From assembly GCF_000020965.1 (NCBI RefSeq), contig NC_011297.1, positions 696,387-760,386 on the forward strand: a stretch of 64,000 bases of DNA, in the 5' to 3' direction. A program made the position numbers and the translations under genes. Source of the DNA: Dictyoglomus thermophilum H-6-12 (lineage in GTDB: Bacteria; Dictyoglomota; Dictyoglomia; Dictyoglomales; Dictyoglomaceae). Under the pieces are notes generated by a model. It was not told the origin of the DNA. It made no database searches and saw only the letters and a list, made by a program, of their open reading frames with translations. Positions 8,514-58,005 of the stretch are shown here, piece by piece (positions within the stretch are counted from its first letter, which is position 1; each line of letters starts with the position of its first letter).

Positions 8514-9545
8514 ATGGGTATATCGCCTTTAGTTAAAGAGAAAATTAAAGAGGAGTTGCTGAAAATAATTGAAAGTAGTAGAAAAGATGACTATGTAAAA
8601 ATCTCTTCTGAGAGAGAACTGGCTCAAATCTTTGCTGTGAGTAGGACCACTATAAGAAGTGTGATAAAGGAACTAATAGAAGAAGGAATGTTAGTACAAA
8701 TTCAAGGGAAAGGAACTTATATAACCCCTAAAACAGAAAAATTTGTTTATGTTTTGAATTCTCCAGATTTAAAAAGCGATGATCCTTTTTACTCTAAATT
8801 TTTTGTGGAATTAACGAATAAACTTACAAAAAAAGGTTTTAATTTGAATTTTATATCCATGGATAGAATTGCTCGAAAAAAAGACAAGGAAGTGCCAGTA
8901 CTCATTATAGGGGTAATTAATGACGGAACTATTGAAAAACTTAAAAATAATTTCAGATATTTAATTTCTATTGAGCAGTATTTTAATCATGATGAAATCA
9001 TTCAGATTTCTGTAGATGATTATAGAATAGGTTGGTCTGCGGCAGAGGCCCTCATTAAGAGAAATCACGATTATATTATTCATCTTTGTGGACCAGAGAG
9101 ATATACGGCACCTCGTTTAAGAAAGTTGGGCTTTTGGGATAGAGTTAAAATTGAGCCTAAGGTAAAATATGAAATAATTGAGGGAAAGATGAATTATAAA
9201 TCGGGTTATGAATTAGGTGAAAAGGTCTTAGAGATTTTTAATAAAGAGAAAAGAAGTAAAATTGGAATTTTTGCTGCAAATGACTGGATGGCTATAGGCT
9301 TGATGCAGAGGTTGAAAGAGGCTGGTGTTATAGCAGGTAGGGACTTAAGCGTTATTGGATGTGATGATGTTCCTTTATCGACGGAGGTTGTTCCTAATTT
9401 GACTACTTTTAAATGGGATATTGAGAAAATTGTGGAAGAAATTTTGGGGGTTTTGAGTGATATAATAAACAAAAGAAAGTCTGTTTTTGATAAAAGAGTT
9501 CTTGTGCCTGCTGAATTTGTAATAAGACAGACTCTAATGGATTGA
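8514..9545 (+). CDS. GntR/LacI-type (AraR-like) transcriptional regulator
   Basis: A 343-residue sugar-responsive repressor with the AraR domain order: an N-terminal GntR winged helix (ISSERELAQIFAVSRTTIRSVIKEL then LVQIQGKGTYIT, residues about 10-75) and a LacI/periplasmic-binding-like effector domain (IGWSAAEALIKRNHDYIIHLCG, FAANDWMAIGLMQRL, SVIGCDDVPLSTEVVPNLTTF). The last motif is the family pattern of LacI effector domains. It directly precedes the galactan-type operon and its stop codon is embedded in that operon's -35 box, so it is very likely the local regulator; the effector is probably galactose or a galacto-oligosaccharide, by context only. Confidence 0.9.
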   Translation: MGISPLVKEKIKEELLKIIESSRKDDYVKISSERELAQIFAVSRTTIRSVIKELIEEGMLVQIQGKGTYITPKTEKFVYVLNSPDLKSDDPFYSKFFVELTNKLTKKGFNLNFISMDRIARKKDKEVPVLIIGVINDGTIEKLKNNFRYLISIEQYFNHDEIIQISVDDYRIGWSAAEALIKRNHDYIIHLCGPERYTAPRLRKLGFWDRVKIEPKVKYEIIEGKMNYKSGYELGEKVLEIFNKEKRSKIGIFAANDWMAIGLMQRLKEAGVIAGRDLSVIGCDDVPLSTEVVPNLTTFKWDIEKIVEEILGVLSDIINKRKSVFDKRVLVPAEFVIRQTLMD

Positions 9546-9686: not shown

Positions 9687-10883
9687 ATGAAAAAATTAGG
9701 TTATGTATTAATTTTAATCTCTTTAATGATTCTTTTCCTTAGTTTGACGGGAGCACAAACTAATAAGATTACTGTTTGGTGCTCTGAAAAGCAGGTAGAT
9801 ATTCTCCAAAGATTAGGAGAGGAATTTAAGGCTAAATATGGAGTCAGTGTTGACGTTCAATATGTAGAATTTGGCTCTATTAAGCCTAATTTTTTAACGG
9901 CTGCTCCTCAGGGTAAAGGGGCAGATATAATTGTGGGTGCTCATGATTGGGTAGGTGAACTGGTAGTAAATGGCTTATTGGAACCTATTAGTCAGTTCAA
10001 AGATCAAAATCAATTTTATGCTACAGCTTTGAATGCCTTCTCTTATGGTGGTAAACTCTATGGTTTGCCCTATGCTATGGAGGCTATTGCACTAATCTAT
10101 AACAAAGATTATGTAAAGCTTCCACCTTCTACTTTTGATTCCTTAATCTCAACTGCAAAAAGAATAGATACTGCTTATAAAGGAAGGGTTAGAGGCTTCA
10201 TAACTAGTGGAACAGAATTCTACTATGTAGCACCTGTTCTTTTTGGTTATGGTGGTTATGTATTTAAAGAGACACCAAAAGGTCTTGATGTTTCTGATAT
10301 TGGTCTTGCGAATCCTGGAGCTATAAAAGGCGCAAAACTTTGGAAGAGGCTTTTTGATGAAAAGATTTTAACACCTGGAGATAATTATCAGATAATGGAT
10401 TCCATGTTTAAAGAAGGAAAGGCAGCAATGATTATTAATGGACCATGGGCTGTCAAGGCTTATAAAGATGCAGGTATAAATTATGGGGTAACTGTAATAC
10501 CAAGCTTAGAGAAAGGTGTAGTGGCAAAGCCTTTTGTAGGGGTTCAGGGATTTATGATAAATGCAAAATCTCCTAATAAGATTCTTGCAAGAGATTTCGT
10601 ACTCAACTATATAGCTACAAAAGATACAATGTACAAGATTTATCTGGCAGATCCAAGAATTCCTGCAAGAAAAGATGTCCTTTCTATGATTAAAGATAAT
10701 CCTGATATAGTTGGTTTCACAAAGAGTGCAGCAAATGGTATACCTATGCCTAACGTTCCTGAAATGGCTTTTGTTTGGAGTGCTATGAATGATGCTCTTA
10801 ACTTAATTGCAAATGGGAAGGCAACTCCTGAGGAAGCTTTAGAAAATGCAGTGAAAGCAATAAAAGCTCAAATTAAGAAGTAA
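9687..10883 (+). CDS. Sugar ABC transporter substrate-binding protein (MalE/GanS-like)
   Basis: A 398-residue extracellular solute-binding protein of family 1, the receptor of a MalFGK-type importer. Residues 1-23 form a signal peptide ending in LSLTGAQ, with no lipobox cysteine, so it is probably free in the periplasm. Typical family features are ITVWCSEKQVDILQRLGEEF, the GKGADIIVGAHDWVGELV strand, YGLPYAMEAIALIYNKDY and FKEGKAAMIINGPWAV. It heads the operon with two permeases and a GH53 galactanase, as in the Bacillus gan system, so galacto-oligosaccharides are the likely ligand. Start ATG 9687 behind AAGGGGG. A strong hairpin follows before the permease gene. Confidence 0.92.
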   Translation: MKKLGYVLILISLMILFLSLTGAQTNKITVWCSEKQVDILQRLGEEFKAKYGVSVDVQYVEFGSIKPNFLTAAPQGKGADIIVGAHDWVGELVVNGLLEPISQFKDQNQFYATALNAFSYGGKLYGLPYAMEAIALIYNKDYVKLPPSTFDSLISTAKRIDTAYKGRVRGFITSGTEFYYVAPVLFGYGGYVFKETPKGLDVSDIGLANPGAIKGAKLWKRLFDEKILTPGDNYQIMDSMFKEGKAAMIINGPWAVKAYKDAGINYGVTVIPSLEKGVVAKPFVGVQGFMINAKSPNKILARDFVLNYIATKDTMYKIYLADPRIPARKDVLSMIKDNPDIVGFTKSAANGIPMPNVPEMAFVWSAMNDALNLIANGKATPEEALENAVKAIKAQIKK

Positions 10884-10929: not shown

Positions 10930-10949
10930 TGAGGAGGGTGGATAATTTG

Positions 10950-12674
10950 ATGTTAAAATTAACAAAATTTGTCTTATGGTTTTTATTAGCGTTAGTTAAT
11001 GCTCTTCTTTTTTGGGCAGGAGTATACCTGATTCAAAACTATTATTATGAACTTGGCGCAATTATAATAATTGCTTTAATCCTTATAGATTTTTTTATAT
11101 TTAATCCTAAAGCTTATCCTTATAGGTATACAATTCCTGCTCTTATTTTTTTATTTTTACTTGTCATTTATCCCATATACTTTACCATAAAAACTGCTTT
11201 TACTAACTACGGAACTGGACACATATTTACTCGTCAAGAAGCTGTTGAGAGATTATTATACGATCCTAATTATACTTATGTGGTTGAGAAAAATCCTATA
11301 GACTTTAAAATTTTTGCTGTTTACAAGGATGAAAAGCCTACAGAATCCTTTCTTGTGTTATTTAAAATAGGTGGAGAGACATATTTGGGGAAAATGCCTA
11401 TTCCTACTGTAAGGAAAGGCACTGAAGTTTTGCTTAGGGAAGGTAAACTTTATAAAATAACTTCTTCTAAGGTAACAATAGATGGAGTATCTTACGAGTT
11501 TCAGCCTACTCTAAAAGATGTGAATCAAATAATTTCTAAGGATAAAGTTTACAAATTGCTATATTCTTCTGAGGATCTCAGTTTAGAGAGAAATACTTAT
11601 TATTTCATCTTGTTAATACAAAAATATCTTTCTAATGCGGAGTATATAGATCAAGAAACAGGAAGAATAGTGGGAGTTAAGGTAGATACTGATGGTAGGT
11701 GGAAATTCTTTTTTATCAATAGGCTATATCGCCTTTCTTTTGAAGAAGTAAAAGCAGGTGATAAGACTTATAAAAAGAGTGTAATAATAAACACAAAGAC
11801 TCAAAAACCCTTGATAGAGGAGAAAGGATCTTTTTATGATCTTGACGAAAATGGCAATAGGGTTTTCTTGATAGGTTATACTGCCTTTGTAGGGTTGGAG
11901 AACTTTGAGAGAATCTTTAAAGATGAGAGAATATCTAAACCCTTTTTAAATATTTTTATATGGACTGTGGAATGGTCTTTATTTACCGTACTATTATCCT
12001 TCTCTATAGGCCTTATTTTTGCTCTTGCTTTAAACAACAGAAGATTAAAGGGTAGAAATGTTTATAGAACACTTTTGATAATTCCTTGGGCAATCCCCTA
12101 TTTTATATCGGTTTTGACATGGAAAAATGGTATATTCAATGAGACTTATGGAATTCTAAATAAGATAATACTTCCTATGATAGGATTGAATCCAATAAAA
12201 TGGTTTAATGATCCCTTCTGGGCAAAGGTAATATGCATAATTGTTAATACTTGGCTTACATTTCCCTATATGATGACCATATCTTTAGGAGCTCTCCAGT
12301 CAATTCCTGATGAACTTTATGAGGTGGCTGCGATTGATGGTGCTGGAAGATTTGCAAGATTTAGATACATAACCCTTCCTATGCTTTTAACTATTGTAGC
12401 TCCTCTTTTAATAAGTAGTTTTGCCTATACTTTCAATAATTTTACTCTAATTTATCTCTTAACAGCAGGTGGTCCTCCAATGGTTTCTGCAACCACGCCA
12501 GCTGGACATACTGATATTTTGATATCCTATGTTTATAAGCTTGCTTTTGAGGGAAGAGGTCAAGAGTTTGGTTTTGCAAGTGCTATTTCTATTTTGATAT
12601 TTTTCTTAGTTGCTGGTATAAGTTTGATCAATTTCAAAATATCGGGTTCTTTTGAAGAGGTAAGAGGTGAATAG
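10950..12674 (+). CDS. Sugar ABC transporter permease, MalF/GanP-like
   Basis: A 574-residue inner-membrane permease subunit. Three N-terminal hydrophobic segments (to about residue 90) are followed by a soluble insertion of about 230 residues, comparable to the periplasmic P2 loop of MalF, then the conserved transport core from about residue 325. The cytoplasmic EAA loop that docks the ATPase reads EVAAIDGAGRFARFRYITLP near residue 465. The start is uncertain: the box GAGGAGG (10931-10937) is closest to a GTG at 10938 and lies 9 bases before TTG 10947 and 12 before ATG 10950; I list the ATG. The stop is 2 bases before the MalG-like gene, so the two are coupled. Confidence 0.9.
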   Translation: MLKLTKFVLWFLLALVNALLFWAGVYLIQNYYYELGAIIIIALILIDFFIFNPKAYPYRYTIPALIFLFLLVIYPIYFTIKTAFTNYGTGHIFTRQEAVERLLYDPNYTYVVEKNPIDFKIFAVYKDEKPTESFLVLFKIGGETYLGKMPIPTVRKGTEVLLREGKLYKITSSKVTIDGVSYEFQPTLKDVNQIISKDKVYKLLYSSEDLSLERNTYYFILLIQKYLSNAEYIDQETGRIVGVKVDTDGRWKFFFINRLYRLSFEEVKAGDKTYKKSVIINTKTQKPLIEEKGSFYDLDENGNRVFLIGYTAFVGLENFERIFKDERISKPFLNIFIWTVEWSLFTVLLSFSIGLIFALALNNRRLKGRNVYRTLLIIPWAIPYFISVLTWKNGIFNETYGILNKIILPMIGLNPIKWFNDPFWAKVICIIVNTWLTFPYMMTISLGALQSIPDELYEVAAIDGAGRFARFRYITLPMLLTIVAPLLISSFAYTFNNFTLIYLLTAGGPPMVSATTPAGHTDILISYVYKLAFEGRGQEFGFASAISILIFFLVAGISLINFKISGSFEEVRGE

Positions 12675-12676
12675 AT

Positions 12677-14920
12677 ATGGTTGAGAAAAAGACTTATTGG
12701 TTAACTCATATTGTTTTATGGATCTTAATTCCTATTATATTGTTTCCAGTGGTCTGGGTGGTTAGTACTTCTATAAGGAGAGATGAGGCTGCTTTTTCTA
12801 CTAAGATCTTCTCTTCAAGGGTATCCTTACAAAATTATAAAGATCTCATTGCTCCCGAGAAGAATATGCCTGCTCTTGTTCAGGAAATTCAAAATCTTAT
12901 AATGTTAACACCACCTTATGATAATTGGGACAGAAAGAGGATTGAAAGAGAGATAGAAAGGGATATTTCTGCTTTGAAGTCATATATAGAAGAGACTAAT
13001 ACCAGGTATAACGAGGTAGAGAAGAACTATAAAGCCCTAAACGATTATTTGTCTTTAAAAACCGATAACATTAAGACAAGCCTATACGAGTTAATAGAAA
13101 GCTTAAAGGAATATTTAGAAAAAAATCTTCCTAAGGAAGGAAAAGAAGGTGATCTATCTTTAAAATTATCCAAGTTAAAAAAGCTAAGGGAAAAGATTGA
13201 AGAATTAAACAGTAAAATATATCAGAATAGGGTTAAATATAATAGGTTTTTGGAAAAACTTAGTTTAATTCAGAGAGAGATCTTAGAGATAGATAAAAAA
13301 ATTAATGCCCTGAATAATGAAGTTGTAAGTCTAAATAGTAAGTTTAGTGATTTCTCGCTGGTAAGTTATAAAGAAAATTCTTATATTGAAGAAGCACAAT
13401 CTGCTCTAATTAGTAAACTATCCCGATACTCAGATTTTAGTTTAGTGACCCAGAATATTAAAAATCTTTATCAAAAATTGAAATATCTTTCACCAAAGGA
13501 TATTGAATACACTTATCTTCAAACGTCTCTTTTTAAAATTTCTAAAGAGCTTAATAATTTGATTGATCAATTTGATAAGAAAGTTGTAGAGTTAAGCGCA
13601 TATGATAAAAAAATTGCACTTTTAAATCAAGAGAACGAATTTCTTGAGATGCAGAAGGAGCTTCTTCAAGGTCAAGAAGAGAACATAGAGGAAGAGGTAA
13701 AGCCATTAACGAAGATTGATAAGTTAAAGGAGTTTATATCTTCTCTTGATAGTAAGTTAAATAAAATTCAGATGTTTGGTAACTTAGACGATTTGGTTAA
13801 TGAAGTCTCTAATTGGGAGAGTGAATTTAGAGAATTTGTTACCTCATATATTATTGATTACGGAAGAGATAGTTTAAGCTCAAAGATTGAAAGTACTGCG
13901 GAAGGATTAAAGTGGTTTAATGATTACAAAACTTTGAAGGAAAGATTTGTAAGCTTTTCTTCTTACTTAAGTAAAAATTTAGAAAAGGCTAGCGATTTAA
14001 CATCTAGAATAGAAAATAAATGGAGAGAAGTTTTTGAGAAGAATCTTCAAGGGAATAGATTATATCTTTCTGAGCTTGATGATTTATACAATTTAATAAA
14101 GACTGATTTTGTAAATTTTGTAAGTGCTAACATGAATATTGTATCTAAAAAGGCTGGAGATCTAATGGATATAATTCCTTTTAAAGAAGCAAAGAAATGG
14201 CTTGATAGAATAGATAACGGAGTATTTAGAATAGATCAAATTTGGAAACAAAAGACAAAACATTACTTTTTAAAATGGGTTAGAAATTCTATCTTGGTAT
14301 CAGGAATAGCAGCTATTATAACTACTTTAATATGTTCTCTTGCAGCCTATCCATTTAGTAGGATGAGATTTTGGGGCAGGAGATATGGTATTTTGACTCT
14401 TCTTCTTATTCAGATGTTTCCTAGTGCAGTTTATATGATTGCTATATATACTCTACTTAATATCCTGGGTAGATTTATTCCATTTCTTGGGCTCGATACT
14501 CTTTCAGGTCTTACCTTTGTTTATTTGGGAAATATTGCCTATAACATGTATCTTATAAAAGGATATTATGATACTATACCTGATTCTCTTGAAGAATCCG
14601 CTATGATTGATGGAGCCACCAGGTTTCAAACTTTTTACAAGATTGTATTACCTTTAGCAAGACCTATCCTAACTGTTGTGGTGATTCTTACATTTATGAA
14701 TATCTTTAATGAGTTTATCTTTGCACGAATAATCCTTCAAGATGCTCAGAAATATACTTATGCTATTGGTCTATGGACTTTCTCTTCAGGGCCCTATCAA
14801 ACAGAGTGGGGGTTATTTACTGCTGCTGCTCTTCTTGGTATGTTACCTATGACTATATTATTCCTATCTTTGCAAAGGTATATTGTAAGTGGTTTGACTA
14901 AAGGAGCAGTTAAAGGATAG
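12677..14920 (+). CDS. MalG-like permease with giant coiled-coil insertion
   Basis: A 747-residue permease where usual MalG/GanQ proteins have about 280. The first membrane helix (residues about 7-32) and the start of the first external loop look normal (RRDEAAFSTKIFSSRVSLQNY). From about residue 60 to 520 there is a Lys/Glu/Leu-rich region with heptad-like segments (KLKKLREKIEELNSKIYQ, LEIDKKINALNNEVVSLN). The normal MalG core resumes at WVRNSILVSGIAAIITTL with five helices and the EAA loop EESAMIDGATRFQTFYKIV. By topology the insertion is extracytoplasmic. Base use inside it is like that of its neighbours and the frame is open throughout, so it is not a sequencing fusion. Thermotogales also have long MalG proteins as far as I recall. 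Confidence 0.9.
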   Translation: MVEKKTYWLTHIVLWILIPIILFPVVWVVSTSIRRDEAAFSTKIFSSRVSLQNYKDLIAPEKNMPALVQEIQNLIMLTPPYDNWDRKRIEREIERDISALKSYIEETNTRYNEVEKNYKALNDYLSLKTDNIKTSLYELIESLKEYLEKNLPKEGKEGDLSLKLSKLKKLREKIEELNSKIYQNRVKYNRFLEKLSLIQREILEIDKKINALNNEVVSLNSKFSDFSLVSYKENSYIEEAQSALISKLSRYSDFSLVTQNIKNLYQKLKYLSPKDIEYTYLQTSLFKISKELNNLIDQFDKKVVELSAYDKKIALLNQENEFLEMQKELLQGQEENIEEEVKPLTKIDKLKEFISSLDSKLNKIQMFGNLDDLVNEVSNWESEFREFVTSYIIDYGRDSLSSKIESTAEGLKWFNDYKTLKERFVSFSSYLSKNLEKASDLTSRIENKWREVFEKNLQGNRLYLSELDDLYNLIKTDFVNFVSANMNIVSKKAGDLMDIIPFKEAKKWLDRIDNGVFRIDQIWKQKTKHYFLKWVRNSILVSGIAAIITTLICSLAAYPFSRMRFWGRRYGILTLLLIQMFPSAVYMIAIYTLLNILGRFIPFLGLDTLSGLTFVYLGNIAYNMYLIKGYYDTIPDSLEESAMIDGATRFQTFYKIVLPLARPILTVVVILTFMNIFNEFIFARIILQDAQKYTYAIGLWTFSSGPYQTEWGLFTAAALLGMLPMTILFLSLQRYIVSGLTKGAVKG

Positions 14921-14947: not shown

Positions 14948-16798
14948 ATGAGAAAACTAACTATATTAATTTTGATGGGGGTTTTTATGCTAACTTTGGG
15001 ATATGCCGAAACTAAGGTAGTTGTAAATCCTATAGAAAATATATCCAAAGATTTCATTAAGGGCATTGATATATCAATGTTGTATGAGATTGAGAAAAAT
15101 GGAGGAAAGTTTTTTGATAATGGGGTTCAAAAAGATCCGCTTCAAATACTAAAGGATCACGGAGTTAATTGGGTGAGAGTAAGGATATGGAATGATCCTT
15201 ACGATGAGAAAGGCAATCCTTATGGTGGAGGAAATTGCGAATATAAAAGTATGACCGAACTTGCTAAGAGAGCAAAAGCTCTGGGATTAAAAGTACTTGT
15301 GGATTTTCATTACAGCGATTTTTGGGCTGATCCTGGTAAACAGGAAAAGCCAAAGGCGTGGAAAAATTTAAAAGGTAAAGCCCTTGAAAAAGCAGTTTCT
15401 GATTTTACATATCAGGTGATTAAGTACATGAGAGATAATAGAGCTTTACCTGATATGGTGCAGATTGGTAACGAAGTTAATAATGGTTTTTTGTGGCCTG
15501 ATGGTAAGCTTATTGGAGATGATGCAGGAGGTTTTGAGAATTTTGTTAGGTTGTTCAATGCTGGAGCAAGTGCTGTAAGAAAAGTGGATAAGAATATTAA
15601 GATAGCTGTGCATCTTGCTGAAGGTGGAAATAGTGCATTATTTAGATGGTTTTTTGGAAATGTTTTAAGTTTAAAAATGGACTTTGATGTTATCGGAGTA
15701 TCTTATTATCCCTACTGGCATGGCACCTTGGATGAATTGAGGGAAAATTTAAACAGTATTGCTCTCTGGTTGAATAAGGAGATAGCAATTTTTGAGACTG
15801 CTTATGCATGGACTTTAGATGATGCTGATGGACATCCAAACATTTTTGGTGGAGACCTGTGGAAGATAGGAGGATATAAGCCTACAATTCAAGGACAAGC
15901 TACAGCTATAAGGGACATAATGGATGTAATAGCTAATATACCAAATAATAAAGGTTTAGGAATATTCTATTGGGAGGGTTGTTGGATACCTGTAAAGGGA
16001 GCAGGATGGAAGCAAGGAGAAGGCAATCCATGGGAAAATCAAGCTCTATTTGATTTTAAAGGGAATGCTCTTCCATCTTTAGATGTGTTTAATCTTGTTT
16101 ATAGAAAAGAGAAGGTTTATTCAAAACCAATAGAAGTTTTGTCCGAGATAAATATAAAAATTTCTACAGGAGAGATACCTAATTTGCCTGAAAAGGTTAA
16201 AGTGCTATTTGATGATGACTCAATTAGAAGTATGAAAGTTAAATGGGATGTTATTGATCCAAAACTTATTGCAACTCCTGGAGAGTTTAAGTTAAAAGGA
16301 ATTATTGATGAAGTACAAAAAGAAATATATGCAAATATTCAGGTGAGTGGTCAGAAAAATTATATACAGAATCCAAGCTTTGAATCTGGAACTCTTTTCC
16401 CTTGGAAGGTTGAAGGAGATATCTCTGCTGTAAAGGTTGTAAAGGCAACTCCTCCTCAGAATGCAAAGTCAGGGGATTACGCTCTTAACTATTGGCTTGA
16501 TAAGCCTTTTAAGTTTGAGTTATACCAGGTTGTTAAGGATCTTAAACCTGGTAAATATAAGGTTAGTTTTTGGATTCAAGGTGGCGGAGGAGAAAATTTA
16601 GTAAGGTTTAAAGTTAGTGGATACGGGGGTGAAGATAGATATATTGACATAACTAATACTGGTTGGTTAGAGTGGAAAAATCCTACTATAAGCAATATTG
16701 AAGTTACTACGGGAGAGATTAAAATAAGTATAATAGTGGATGGAAATACTGGAAACTGGGCATGGATAGATGATTTTGAGTTGAAAGAACAAGAGTAG
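14948..16798 (+). CDS. Secreted GH53 endo-beta-1,4-galactanase
   Basis: A 616-residue exported enzyme that cuts beta-1,4-galactan side chains of pectin. Residues 1-20 are a signal peptide. The GH53 barrel (about 35-390) carries GIDISMLYEIEKNGGKFFD, VNWVRVRIWNDPYD, VDFHYSDFWADPGKQ, the acid/base Glu in QIGNEVNNGFLWPDG (about residue 176) and the nucleophile Glu in IAIFETAYAWT (about residue 283). After it come an Ig-like domain with the LPEKVKVLFDDDSIRSMKVKW pattern and a beta-sandwich carbohydrate-binding-like module (NPSFESGTLFPWKVEGD to the end). The start ATG 14948 follows AGGAGG. It is last in the operon and supplies the oligosaccharides the importer would take up. Confidence 0.95.
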   Translation: MRKLTILILMGVFMLTLGYAETKVVVNPIENISKDFIKGIDISMLYEIEKNGGKFFDNGVQKDPLQILKDHGVNWVRVRIWNDPYDEKGNPYGGGNCEYKSMTELAKRAKALGLKVLVDFHYSDFWADPGKQEKPKAWKNLKGKALEKAVSDFTYQVIKYMRDNRALPDMVQIGNEVNNGFLWPDGKLIGDDAGGFENFVRLFNAGASAVRKVDKNIKIAVHLAEGGNSALFRWFFGNVLSLKMDFDVIGVSYYPYWHGTLDELRENLNSIALWLNKEIAIFETAYAWTLDDADGHPNIFGGDLWKIGGYKPTIQGQATAIRDIMDVIANIPNNKGLGIFYWEGCWIPVKGAGWKQGEGNPWENQALFDFKGNALPSLDVFNLVYRKEKVYSKPIEVLSEINIKISTGEIPNLPEKVKVLFDDDSIRSMKVKWDVIDPKLIATPGEFKLKGIIDEVQKEIYANIQVSGQKNYIQNPSFESGTLFPWKVEGDISAVKVVKATPPQNAKSGDYALNYWLDKPFKFELYQVVKDLKPGKYKVSFWIQGGGGENLVRFKVSGYGGEDRYIDITNTGWLEWKNPTISNIEVTTGEIKISIIVDGNTGNWAWIDDFELKEQE

Positions 16799-18436: not shown

Positions 18437-18466
18437 GGGGGAAGTTTATCTTCCCCCCTCTTTTTT
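18437..18466 (+). terminator. Rho-independent terminator after the family 5 receptor
   Basis: GGGGGAAG (18437-18444) pairs with CTTCCCCC (18450-18457), loop TTTAT, followed by CTC and six Ts. It lies inside what is otherwise a receptor-permease operon, so it probably attenuates expression of the permeases. Confidence 0.85.
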
Positions 18467-18488
18467 ACAATTGGGGTGATATAAACTA

Positions 18489-19490
18489 ATGAAGGAATAT
18501 ATAATAAAAAGACTATTGCTTTTAATCCCTATTTTAATTGGAGTTTCCTTTATTTCTTTTATATTAATAAGATTGATACCTGGAGATCCTGCTAGGGTGA
18601 TCTTAGGAGAAAGAGCAACTCCTGGCGAGCTAGCACGTATTAGAGAAGAGCTTGGTTTGAATAAGCCAATTTTAATACAATACTTGATTTTTTTGAAACA
18701 GCTTATAAAAGGAGACCTTGGAAGATCTATTGTGACTAGAGAAAAAGTTATCAATGAAATTATGATTAGATTTCCAGCTACTATTGAGTTGACCTTGTTT
18801 TCTATGTTTATAGCAAGCTTTTTGGGGATATTTTTCGGAATTTTAGCATCTCTAAAGCCTGGATCTATTGTTGACACTTTTGTTATGTTTCTTGCTCTTG
18901 TAGGAGTGTCTATGCCTATTTTTTGGTTAGGTCTTATGTTAATATGGTTTGGGGCTCTCTATTTAGGGTGGTTCCCTCCTTCAGGAAGATTAGATGTAGA
19001 TATAAACTTGAATGTTATAACAAACTTTTACTTGATTGACAGCGTTTTAACAGGTAATTTTAAAGCCTTCTTCAACTCTTTGTATCATCTTATCTTACCG
19101 AGTATTGCCTTATCCTCGGTACCTATGGCAACAATTGCAAGAATGACAAGGTCAAGTATGTTAGAGGTGCTAAATCAAGAGTACATTTTAGTAGAATATG
19201 CTAAGGGTTTACCAAAAAGAAGAATCATTTTACGATCTGCTCTAAGAAATGCATTAATCCCCATTATTACTGTGATTGGGCTAGAATTTGGGTTTTTGTT
19301 GGGAGGGGCTATTATGACGGAGACTATATTCTCATGGCCTGGAATGGGAAGACTAGTATATGATGCTATAATGTCTCGAGATTATCCGTTAATACAAGGA
19401 GCCATATTGCTATCAGCCTTATTATTTGTAATAATTAATCTTATAGTGGATATAATATATGTTTTTATCGATCCAAGAATACGCTATTAG
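18489..19490 (+). CDS. Opp/Dpp-type ABC permease, DppB-like
   Basis: A 333-residue inner-membrane permease subunit. It begins with the family N-terminus YIIKRLLLLIPILIGVSFISF and RLIPGDPARVILGERATP, with six predicted helices; the conserved EAA loop reads EYILVEYAKGLPKRRIILRSALRNALIPIIT near residue 237, followed by GFLLGGAIMTETIFSWPGMGRL. Start ATG 18489 with GGGGTGAT upstream. It is followed after 11 bases by the DppC-like gene. No DppD/DppF ATPase gene is present. Confidence 0.94.
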   Translation: MKEYIIKRLLLLIPILIGVSFISFILIRLIPGDPARVILGERATPGELARIREELGLNKPILIQYLIFLKQLIKGDLGRSIVTREKVINEIMIRFPATIELTLFSMFIASFLGIFFGILASLKPGSIVDTFVMFLALVGVSMPIFWLGLMLIWFGALYLGWFPPSGRLDVDINLNVITNFYLIDSVLTGNFKAFFNSLYHLILPSIALSSVPMATIARMTRSSMLEVLNQEYILVEYAKGLPKRRIILRSALRNALIPIITVIGLEFGFLLGGAIMTETIFSWPGMGRLVYDAIMSRDYPLIQGAILLSALLFVIINLIVDIIYVFIDPRIRY

Positions 19491-19501: not shown

Positions 19502-20368
19502 ATGATAATGAAAAAGGTAAATTTAGGTCAAAAGTCCTCAAGAAGAATTTTGAAAAAATTTTTAAGGCATAAGACAGGGATTTTAGGGGCTTTTTTGCTT
19601 TTTTCTTTCATTCTCTTAGCTGTATTTGCTGACTTAATAACACCATATGATCCTTATACCCAAAATTTAGTTGAAAGATTACTTCCACCATCTCCTAAGC
19701 ATTTTTTCGGTACTGACTATGCAGGAAGGGATATTTTTACAAGGATTATTTATGGAGCAAGGATCTCGCTTACCGTAGGATTTATATCTGTTTTTTTTGC
19801 TTTATCTTTTGGAGTCTTTTTAGGACTAATTTCAGGATATTTTGGGGGTTTGTGGGATGTTTTAATAATGAGATTAATTGATATAATGCTTGCTTTTCCA
19901 ACAATACTTCTTGCTATTGGTATTGTGGCTGTTTTAGGACCAAAATTGGAAAACACTATGATTGCTGTTGGTATTGTCTCTATTCCAACCTTTGCAAGGA
20001 TAGTTAGAGCTTCAGTCCTTTCAGTAAAAGAAAAAGATTTTATTGTTGCTGCAAAAGCTGTAGGCGTAAGTACGGGAAAAATCTTGTTAAAGCATATCTT
20101 GCCTAATATTGTTGCTCCTATAATTGTACAAGCTACTTTGGGCATAGGTTCTGCAATACTTGAGGCTGCTGGTCTTTCTTTTTTAGGGCTTGGGGCAAAA
20201 CCTCCAACTCCCGAATGGGGTGCTATGCTTTCTGAATCTCGACAATATTTGAGAACTGCTCCTTGGACTGTTGTTTTTCCAGGACTTGCTATAATGATGT
20301 TAGTCCTTGCATTCAATCTTTTTGGGGATGCGTTGAGAGATGTATTTGATCCAAAGTCCTATAAGTGA
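19502..20368 (+). CDS. Opp/Dpp-type ABC permease, DppC-like
   Basis: A 288-residue inner-membrane permease subunit that pairs with the DppB-like protein. The N-terminal part shows the DppC pattern: RRILKKFLRHKTGILGAFLL, then DPYTQNL, PSPKHFFGTDYAGRDIFTRIIYGARISL. The EAA loop is EKDFIVAAKAVGVSTGKILLKHILPN, and the C-terminal GLGAKPPTPEWGAMLSE is diagnostic. Two in-frame ATG codons (19502 and 19508) follow TAGGGGAA; either could be used. Thirteen bases after its stop comes the methylglyoxal synthase gene instead of the expected ATPases. Confidence 0.94.
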   Translation: MIMKKVNLGQKSSRRILKKFLRHKTGILGAFLLFSFILLAVFADLITPYDPYTQNLVERLLPPSPKHFFGTDYAGRDIFTRIIYGARISLTVGFISVFFALSFGVFLGLISGYFGGLWDVLIMRLIDIMLAFPTILLAIGIVAVLGPKLENTMIAVGIVSIPTFARIVRASVLSVKEKDFIVAAKAVGVSTGKILLKHILPNIVAPIIVQATLGIGSAILEAAGLSFLGLGAKPPTPEWGAMLSESRQYLRTAPWTVVFPGLAIMMLVLAFNLFGDALRDVFDPKSYK

Positions 20369-56892: not shown

Positions 56893-58005
56893 ATGGCAGA
56901 GGTAAAGCTTGAAAATGTGACTAAAAAATTTGGGGATGTTATAGCGGTAAATAATGTAAATCTTGATATTAAAGACAAAGAATTTATTGTATTGGTTGGC
57001 CCATCAGGGTGTGGTAAGACAACTACATTAAGAATGATCGCAGGATTAGAGGAAGTTACTTCTGGTAATATTTATATTGATGGAAAAGTTGTTAATGATG
57101 TTCCACCTAAAGATCGTGATATAGCAATGGTGTTCCAGAACTATGCTCTTTATCCTCATATGACAGTTTATGACAACATGGCTTTTGGTCTTAAATTAAG
57201 AAAGTATCCTAAGAGTGAGATTGACCGAAGAGTAAAAGCAGCAGCGGAAATGCTTGGAATTGAAAATCTATTAAAGAGAAAACCGAAAGAACTTTCAGGT
57301 GGTCAGAGACAGCGTGTTGCTTTAGGTCGTGCTATTGTTCGTGAGCCAAAGGTCTTCTTAATGGATGAGCCTCTTTCAAACTTAGATGCGAAATTAAGGG
57401 TACAGATGAGAGCTGAGCTTAAGAAACTTCAAAGAACTCTTGGGGTTACAACGATTTATGTTACTCATGATCAGACGGAAGCAATGACAATGGGAGATAG
57501 GATTGTAGTAATGAAAGATGGAGTGGTACAACAAGTAGACGATCCTTTAACGGTTTATGAAAAGCCTAACAACGTATTTGTGGCAGGTTTTATAGGAAGT
57601 CCTCCAATGAACTTCATTGATGCTACATTGTCCTCTGATGCTAGAGTTCTTGATTTGGGTAGTTTCAAGCTTGGTATTCCTGCTGATATGCAGAGTTTTG
57701 TTGCGGAACAAGCCAAAGATTATCTTGGTAAAAAAGTGATACTTGGGGTAAGACCTGAGCATATATATGAAGTAAGTCTTATAAAGACTGAAGATCTTAT
57801 TCCTGAAGCTGTAGCGGATATGAGAGTAGAGGTACTTGAACCTATGGGAACTGAAGTATATTTGTATCTTATAAATGGTCCAGTAAGTGTAGTAGCAAGA
57901 GTAGGATCTGAGACTAAAGCAAGAATGGGTGAAAATGTGAAGGTAATGTTTGATTTAAGAAAAATGCATCTTTTTGATCCTGTAACTCAGGTTGCGATAA
58001 TTTAG
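56893..58005 (+). CDS. Multi-sugar ABC transporter ATPase (MsmX/UgpC/MalK type)
   Basis: The 370-residue ATPase subunit of carbohydrate importers. It carries Walker [23 protein letters not shown]-loop [22 protein letters not shown], signature [20 protein letters not shown], Walker [18 protein letters not shown]-loop [16 protein letters not shown] and the C-terminal regulatory OB domain ([19 protein letters not shown]). It has no permease genes beside it, like MsmX of Bacillus, which serves several importers. The MalF/MalG-type system at 9.7-14.9 kb lacks an ATPase and is the obvious client. Start ATG 56893 behind GGGAGGTAGGAG; a strong terminator follows. Confidence 0.95.

Follow-up and report, generated by a model that had tools for sequence, protein, structure and literature searches.

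A long MalG permease with a predicted helical stalk in Dictyoglomus thermophilum extends a Thermotogales transporter class to a second phylum

The stretch of 64,000 nucleotides analysed here (the window), which sits inside the complete genome of Dictyoglomus thermophilum H-6-12 (1,959,987 bases), encodes a MalG-type permease of 747 amino acids whose first external loop is expanded into what our modeling predicts to be an all-helical, coiled-coil-rich domain. This long MalG is a rediscovery, in a new phylum, of a known class. Noll et al. (2008) described MalG1 and MalG2 of Thermotogales with a hydrophilic region of about 500 amino acids between transmembrane helices (TM) 1 and 2, a region of unknown function that was present in no other MalG, and they noted that the MalF proteins partnering MalG1 and MalG2 possess a large periplasmic loop (PMC2246101). 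An earlier note on this DNA, written from the sequence alone, had mentioned long MalGs of unknown role in Thermotogales, in agreement with that report. The Thermotogales region is thus already in the literature, whereas our search, which left most subscription journals outside its reach, found no account of the structure or role of the domain or of its presence in Dictyoglomus. New are the occurrence in Dictyoglomota, the near-universality in Thermotogota with none elsewhere in a domain-wide sample, and the pairing with an enlarged MalF-P2 loop. The 2008 statement confining the region to Thermotogales is thereby corrected and its published range needs widening; an orphan domain now has a predicted structure and a distribution.

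MalFGK2E counts among the textbook ABC importers, and it is still debated how a free receptor finds its permease and holds on to it (e.g., PMC3328499). A natural lineage combining a giant MalG-P1 loop with an enlarged MalF-P2 loop offers a test case for receptor-permease docking, and we tentatively read the stalk as a docking scaffold.

The insert and the permease core

The long MalG is made up of the following parts:
12677..14920, plus strand: long malG, 747 aa, a single uninterrupted ORF with the MalG/BPD_transp_1 core at residues 530-747
12689..12778, plus strand: MalG TM1, residues 5-34 (hydropathy scan)
12851..14260, plus strand: residues 59-528, the insert predicted to form a helical stalk in the external loop between TM1 and TM2 (comparison with the short paralogue; AlphaFold pLDDT mostly 80-94 over residues 64-520)
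14264..14917, plus strand: permease core of MalG, residues 530-747, including the EAA motif (NCBIfam MalG; 2r6g_G alignment)

The NCBIfam MalG model NF008231 matches in two stretches, the better of which covers residues 530-747; the whole-protein score of 241 bits stays below the equivalog cut-off of 261. Pfam BPD_transp_1 matches residues 555-740 with 57 bits against a cut-off of 26.4, as befits a CUT1 MalG-type permease core, and the EAA motif EESAMIDGATRFQTFYKIVLP lies at residues 639-659. MalG of E. coli (2r6g_G) can be aligned to residues 4-54 and 531-747 only. A second malEFG operon of the same genome encodes a MalG of 281 aa, the core of which is 59% identical to that of the long MalG; relative to this short paralogue, about 465 residues have been added after NYKDL (residue 58) and ahead of YFLKWVRNS (about residue 530), a position that corresponds to the first external loop, directly before TM2. 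Both comparisons bear out the earlier note, which had seen a MalG start broken near residue 60, a core resuming near residue 530 and an insertion of about 460 residues in one open frame. No hydrophobic segment was detected inside the insert by the hydropathy scan, and MalG family topology, with the N-terminus inside and the EAA loop in the cytoplasm, should place the insert on the extracytoplasmic side.

Extra residues in this loop are also found in the MalG proteins (439-457 aa) of three Thermus-like genomes (L072, L075 and L076), but there they amount to about 100-150 residues with hydrophobic segments and do not form a coiled coil. The TM1-TM2 loop of MalG seems to accept inserts repeatedly.

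Predicted structure of the stalk

A Lupas-type heptad scan assigned 175 residues of the insert a coiled-coil probability of at least 0.5, while 100 shuffled versions averaged 32 and peaked at 113; in other long MalGs, 81 to 289 residues passed the same threshold. The coiled-coil character of the insert is above chance. An AlphaFold model of the window MalG, built from a seven-sequence alignment, places helices at residues 64-76, 86-149 (one short break), 158-222, 236-269 (one break), 276-366, 370-395, 399-410, 412-457, 465-499 and 503-523. The pLDDT of the stalk lies mostly at 80-94; owing to the shallow alignment, that of the permease core reaches about 30-50 and the model of the core is poor. 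The main helical elements are:
12932..13123, plus strand: stalk helix A, residues 86-149 (AlphaFold/DSSP; high heptad score)
13148..13342, plus strand: stalk helix B, residues 158-222 (AlphaFold/DSSP; high heptad score)
13502..13774, plus strand: stalk helix D, residues 276-366, the longest, which would measure about 13.6 nm as a straight helix (AlphaFold/DSSP)
13910..14047, plus strand: stalk helix F, residues 412-457 (AlphaFold/DSSP)
14069..14245, plus strand: conserved base helices, residues 465-523, adjoining TM2 (AlphaFold; kept between phyla)

Modeled alone, the insert of L030, a homologue from Thermotogota, gave a mean pLDDT of 90.6, a pTM of 0.64 and a longest helix of 95 residues, and its helix order was identical to that of the window insert, although the two models share one small alignment and are incompletely independent. 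The coiled coil proposed in the earlier note is thus recovered by the heptad scan and by a high-confidence helical model. At the junction of helices A and B, the L030 insert adds a small helical part; such a part, of about 30-50 residues, is present in the MalGs of L026 and L029-L031 and absent from most Dictyoglomus copies.

The heptad pattern, which exceeds that of the shuffles by a wide margin, together with the galactanase linked in the operon, could be taken to mean that stalks from adjacent importers join into intermolecular coiled coils, thereby gathering transporters or hydrolases. We regard such clustering as quite improbable: the L030 insert is predicted with high confidence to fold as a single chain, so that a partner chain would be unneeded.

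Foldseek searches of the PDB with the full-length window model and the L030 insert model returned nothing at E<=0.001, the weak matches being mostly generic coiled coils, and a search of viral structures with the L030 insert model gave no significant match. A profile search of the PDB recovered generic coiled coils only, and no curated Pfam or NCBIfam family covers the insert at its cut-off. HMM matches to SMC/Rad50/ASRP and baculovirus P10 fell under the curated cut-offs and were rejected as generic coiled-coil matches; scans of viral contigs for further sequences found none.

The length of the helices bears on the main rival to a docking function, namely that the stalk is a strut spanning the periplasm, which would reach the peptidoglycan or the outer membrane (toga) and either place the importer under outer-membrane porins or attach it to the wall; wall tethering and spanning of the periplasm were both among the ideas of the earlier note. 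Helices of 91-95 residues would extend for about 14 nm if straight, Thermotogota and Dictyoglomota are both diderm (PMC5167688; PMC3387000), and with Omp-alpha a coiled-coil rod is already at work in Thermotogales (PMC3387000). The strut would parallel proposals made for the coiled coils of MmpL5 and for the T. maritima Omp-alpha rod (PMC12501195; PMC3387000). MmpL5 and MmpL4 resemble the long MalG as inner-membrane transporters with an external alpha-helical coiled-coil insertion (PMC12501195), but they are unrelated RND exporters, and the Foldseek match to MmpL5 is insignificant (E=0.40). Omp-alpha (OmpA1), likewise a periplasmic coiled-coil rod (PMC3387000), differs in being a separate protein with an SLH domain, for which the window MalG has no Pfam match. 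However, profile searches found no wall- or membrane-binding domain, and conservation is lowest in the middle of the insert, where the tip would lie. We therefore consider a strut unlikely.

Distribution, phylogeny and selection

Long MalGs, or fragments of them at contig ends, are present in six of the seven Dictyoglomota genomes and, among the matches listed, in about 95 of the 103 Thermotogota genomes, where the frames measure 613-963 aa and mostly 780-960. A scan of 386 genomes, the majority drawn from across the domain, showed none outside these two phyla; it scored two candidates per genome and could let rare cases escape, and its three frames of 830-922 aa were repeats of Thermotogota matches. 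The search for homologues called for in the earlier note shows a protein common to Thermotogota and Dictyoglomota. Other frames of 430-794 aa outside the two phyla, part of which were inspected, owed their extra length, where read, to upstream out-of-frame GC-rich sequence, the Thermus-like genomes excepted.

In a tree of MalE and the MalF and MalG cores, the 26 long systems form one clade (support 99). The Dictyoglomus long systems (support 100) are nested within Thermotogota as sister (support 100) to nine Thermotogota operons, eight of which carry a GH53 gene; given this nesting, the malE-malF-long malG-GH53 operon is probably a horizontally moved cassette. The window protein shares with the Thermotogales class the hydrophilic TM1-TM2 region, the homology and predicted fold of the insert and the clustering of its operon with Mal1/Mal2 (support 99-100); given the Dictyoglomota copies, the class is not confined to Thermotogales. 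Homology of the inserts is visible in conserved ends, an alignable middle and the same predicted helix order. Like those of Thermotogales MalG1/MalG2, the window system has a MalF with a large P2 loop, and it shares the operon order, including GH53, with Thermotogales mal1; against the MalG1/MalG2 inserts it shows homologous ends and 27-29% identity. Unlike MalG1/MalG2 (about 780-960 aa), the Dictyoglomus proteins are shorter (747-799 aa) and stem from another phylum.

Compared with one Thermotogota genome (that holding L091), the insert of the window operon is 29% identical, the MalG core 72% and MalE 74%; the conserved parts of the insert are its membrane-proximal ends, and the middle drifts fast. 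Between the two closest Dictyoglomus orthologues, the permease core shows 98% amino acid identity and a dN/dS of 0.01, and the stalk 63% identity and a dN/dS of about 0.12, a rough ratio since the stalk dS is near saturation. These substitution patterns indicate that the stalk is under purifying selection, and the conserved ends together with the low dN/dS fit a constrained, sequence-tolerant stalk with a specific base.

Such drift could also be expected if the insert were a nearly inert coiled-coil filler, an expansion that the protein tolerates without using it. The retention of the insert across nearly all Thermotogota genomes and after its probable transfer to Dictyoglomota, the dN/dS of the stalk and the helix order kept between the phyla speak against this, and we give inert filler hardly any credence.

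Both phyla are largely thermophilic. The insert has so far been seen only in them, and it might serve as a thermal brace that stabilizes the periplasmic face of MalF/MalG at high temperature with no role in receptor binding. Mesophiles exist among Thermotogota, however, and frames of at least 900 aa are widespread in this phylum; other thermophiles, and the short paralogue in the window genome, manage without a stalk. A thermal brace hence appears very unlikely to us.

The MalF-P2 loop and a possible docking scaffold

The docking reading draws on the partner proteins of the long MalG:
9687..10883, plus strand: malE receptor, 398 aa, signal peptide without lipobox, closest to the T. maritima MalE1/MalE2 structures
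10938..12674, plus strand: malF, 578 aa (NCBIfam NF008232, 376 bits, just below the cut-off of 392; 2r6g_F, E=2e-93)
11199..11894, plus strand: enlarged MalF-P2 loop, residues 88-319, with a 231-residue motif-to-motif span (alignment and span measurement)

The large external loop that the earlier note had ascribed to the neighboring MalF is present in the alignment and enlarged. The distance between two conserved MalF motifs flanking P2 amounts to 224-250 residues wherever an intact operon encodes a long MalG, and to 162-170 where a short MalG is combined with an 8-TM MalF, a gain of about 60-70 residues for the long systems. The only exception among the long systems, L091 with a MalF of 415 aa, agrees with the frameshift that Noll et al. 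described for malF2 (PMC2246101). The E. coli system MalFGK2E (2r6g) is alike in its MalG core, MalF core and receptor fold, and differs in its short MalG-P1 loop, a MalF-P2 of about 180 aa and the lack of a stalk. According to Daus et al. (2007), as cited in PMC3150292, the contacts of E. coli MalE are the MalF-P2 and MalG-P1 loops. Both of these receptor-contacting loops were thus enlarged on the same branch; judged from the sequence comparisons, the insert and the MalF-P2 gain are of a single joint origin, one event and not repeated co-evolution.

From this we infer that the stalk may contact MalF-P2 or MalE and have a docking role. The Dictyoglomus protein belongs to the Thermotogales-type long-MalG type I (CUT1) oligosaccharide ABC importers, in which the MalG-P1 loop has grown by about 460 residues, predicted to form a helical coiled-coil stalk outside the membrane, and MalF-P2 has been lengthened. 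The base of the stalk and the enlarged MalF-P2 would jointly form a docking or retention scaffold that, in a hot diderm cell whose periplasm is wide, keeps free MalE close to the pore; the remainder of the stalk would be a sequence-tolerant structural element. The restriction of the MalF-P2 enlargement to long-MalG operons lends this scaffold indirect support, as do the conserved membrane-proximal ends beside a drifting middle, the single clade of long systems with a stalk kept by selection, and the high-confidence helical models of the same helix order from two phyla. Against it stand the derivation of the MalF-MalG pairing from one evolutionary event instead of repeated co-variation, the short-MalG importers with free receptors that work stalk-less in the same genomes, and a MalE that is itself not enlarged. 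On balance, we hold a receptor-docking or retention scaffold to be possible, with somewhat less than an even chance of being correct. The broader notion of a distinct type I ABC importer architecture, in which a MalG-P1 coiled-coil tower and an extended MalF-P2 arose together once and moved between phyla as a cassette with a hydrolase, so that the importer itself would offer a free receptor a docking tower or a bridge to the envelope, strikes us as doubtful.

The link between long MalGs and lipid-free receptors raised in the earlier note did not hold up as a discriminating trait: the lipobox is absent from the receptors of long- and short-MalG operons alike, in the same phyla and in this genome.

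Substrate, ATPase and neighboring genes

Further genes in the window bear on substrate, regulation and energization:
8514..9545, plus strand: regulator of the GntR type with a sugar-binding domain, which probably belongs to the operon (Pfam; kept in two other Dictyoglomota loci)
14948..16798, plus strand: GH53 endo-beta-1,4-galactanase with a Big_4 domain, a conserved operon member (Pfam PF07745, E=1e-133; synteny)
56893..58005, plus strand: OB_MalK-bearing ATPase gene, the only one found in the genome, which likely energizes the long-MalG importer

The pointers to the substrate diverge: the receptor is nearest to T. maritima MalE1/MalE2, yet the operon contains a GH53 galactanase. MalE1 and MalE2 of T. 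maritima are listed with maltotetraose (PMC12096829). The galactanase, judged from its sequence, suggests fragments of beta-1,4-galactan as the substrate, and the "maltose" names given to the long-MalG operon may mislead in this respect. GH53 accompanies the long-MalG operon not only in Dictyoglomota but also at eight loci of Thermotogota.

The genome harbors about ten CUT1-like permease pairs and the single OB_MalK ATPase, and one MsmX-like ATPase is probably shared by all of these pairs. Elsewhere in the window, long ORFs on the minus strand (18446-18877 and 19750-20316) run antisense to DppB/DppC-type permease genes and are probably chance frames.
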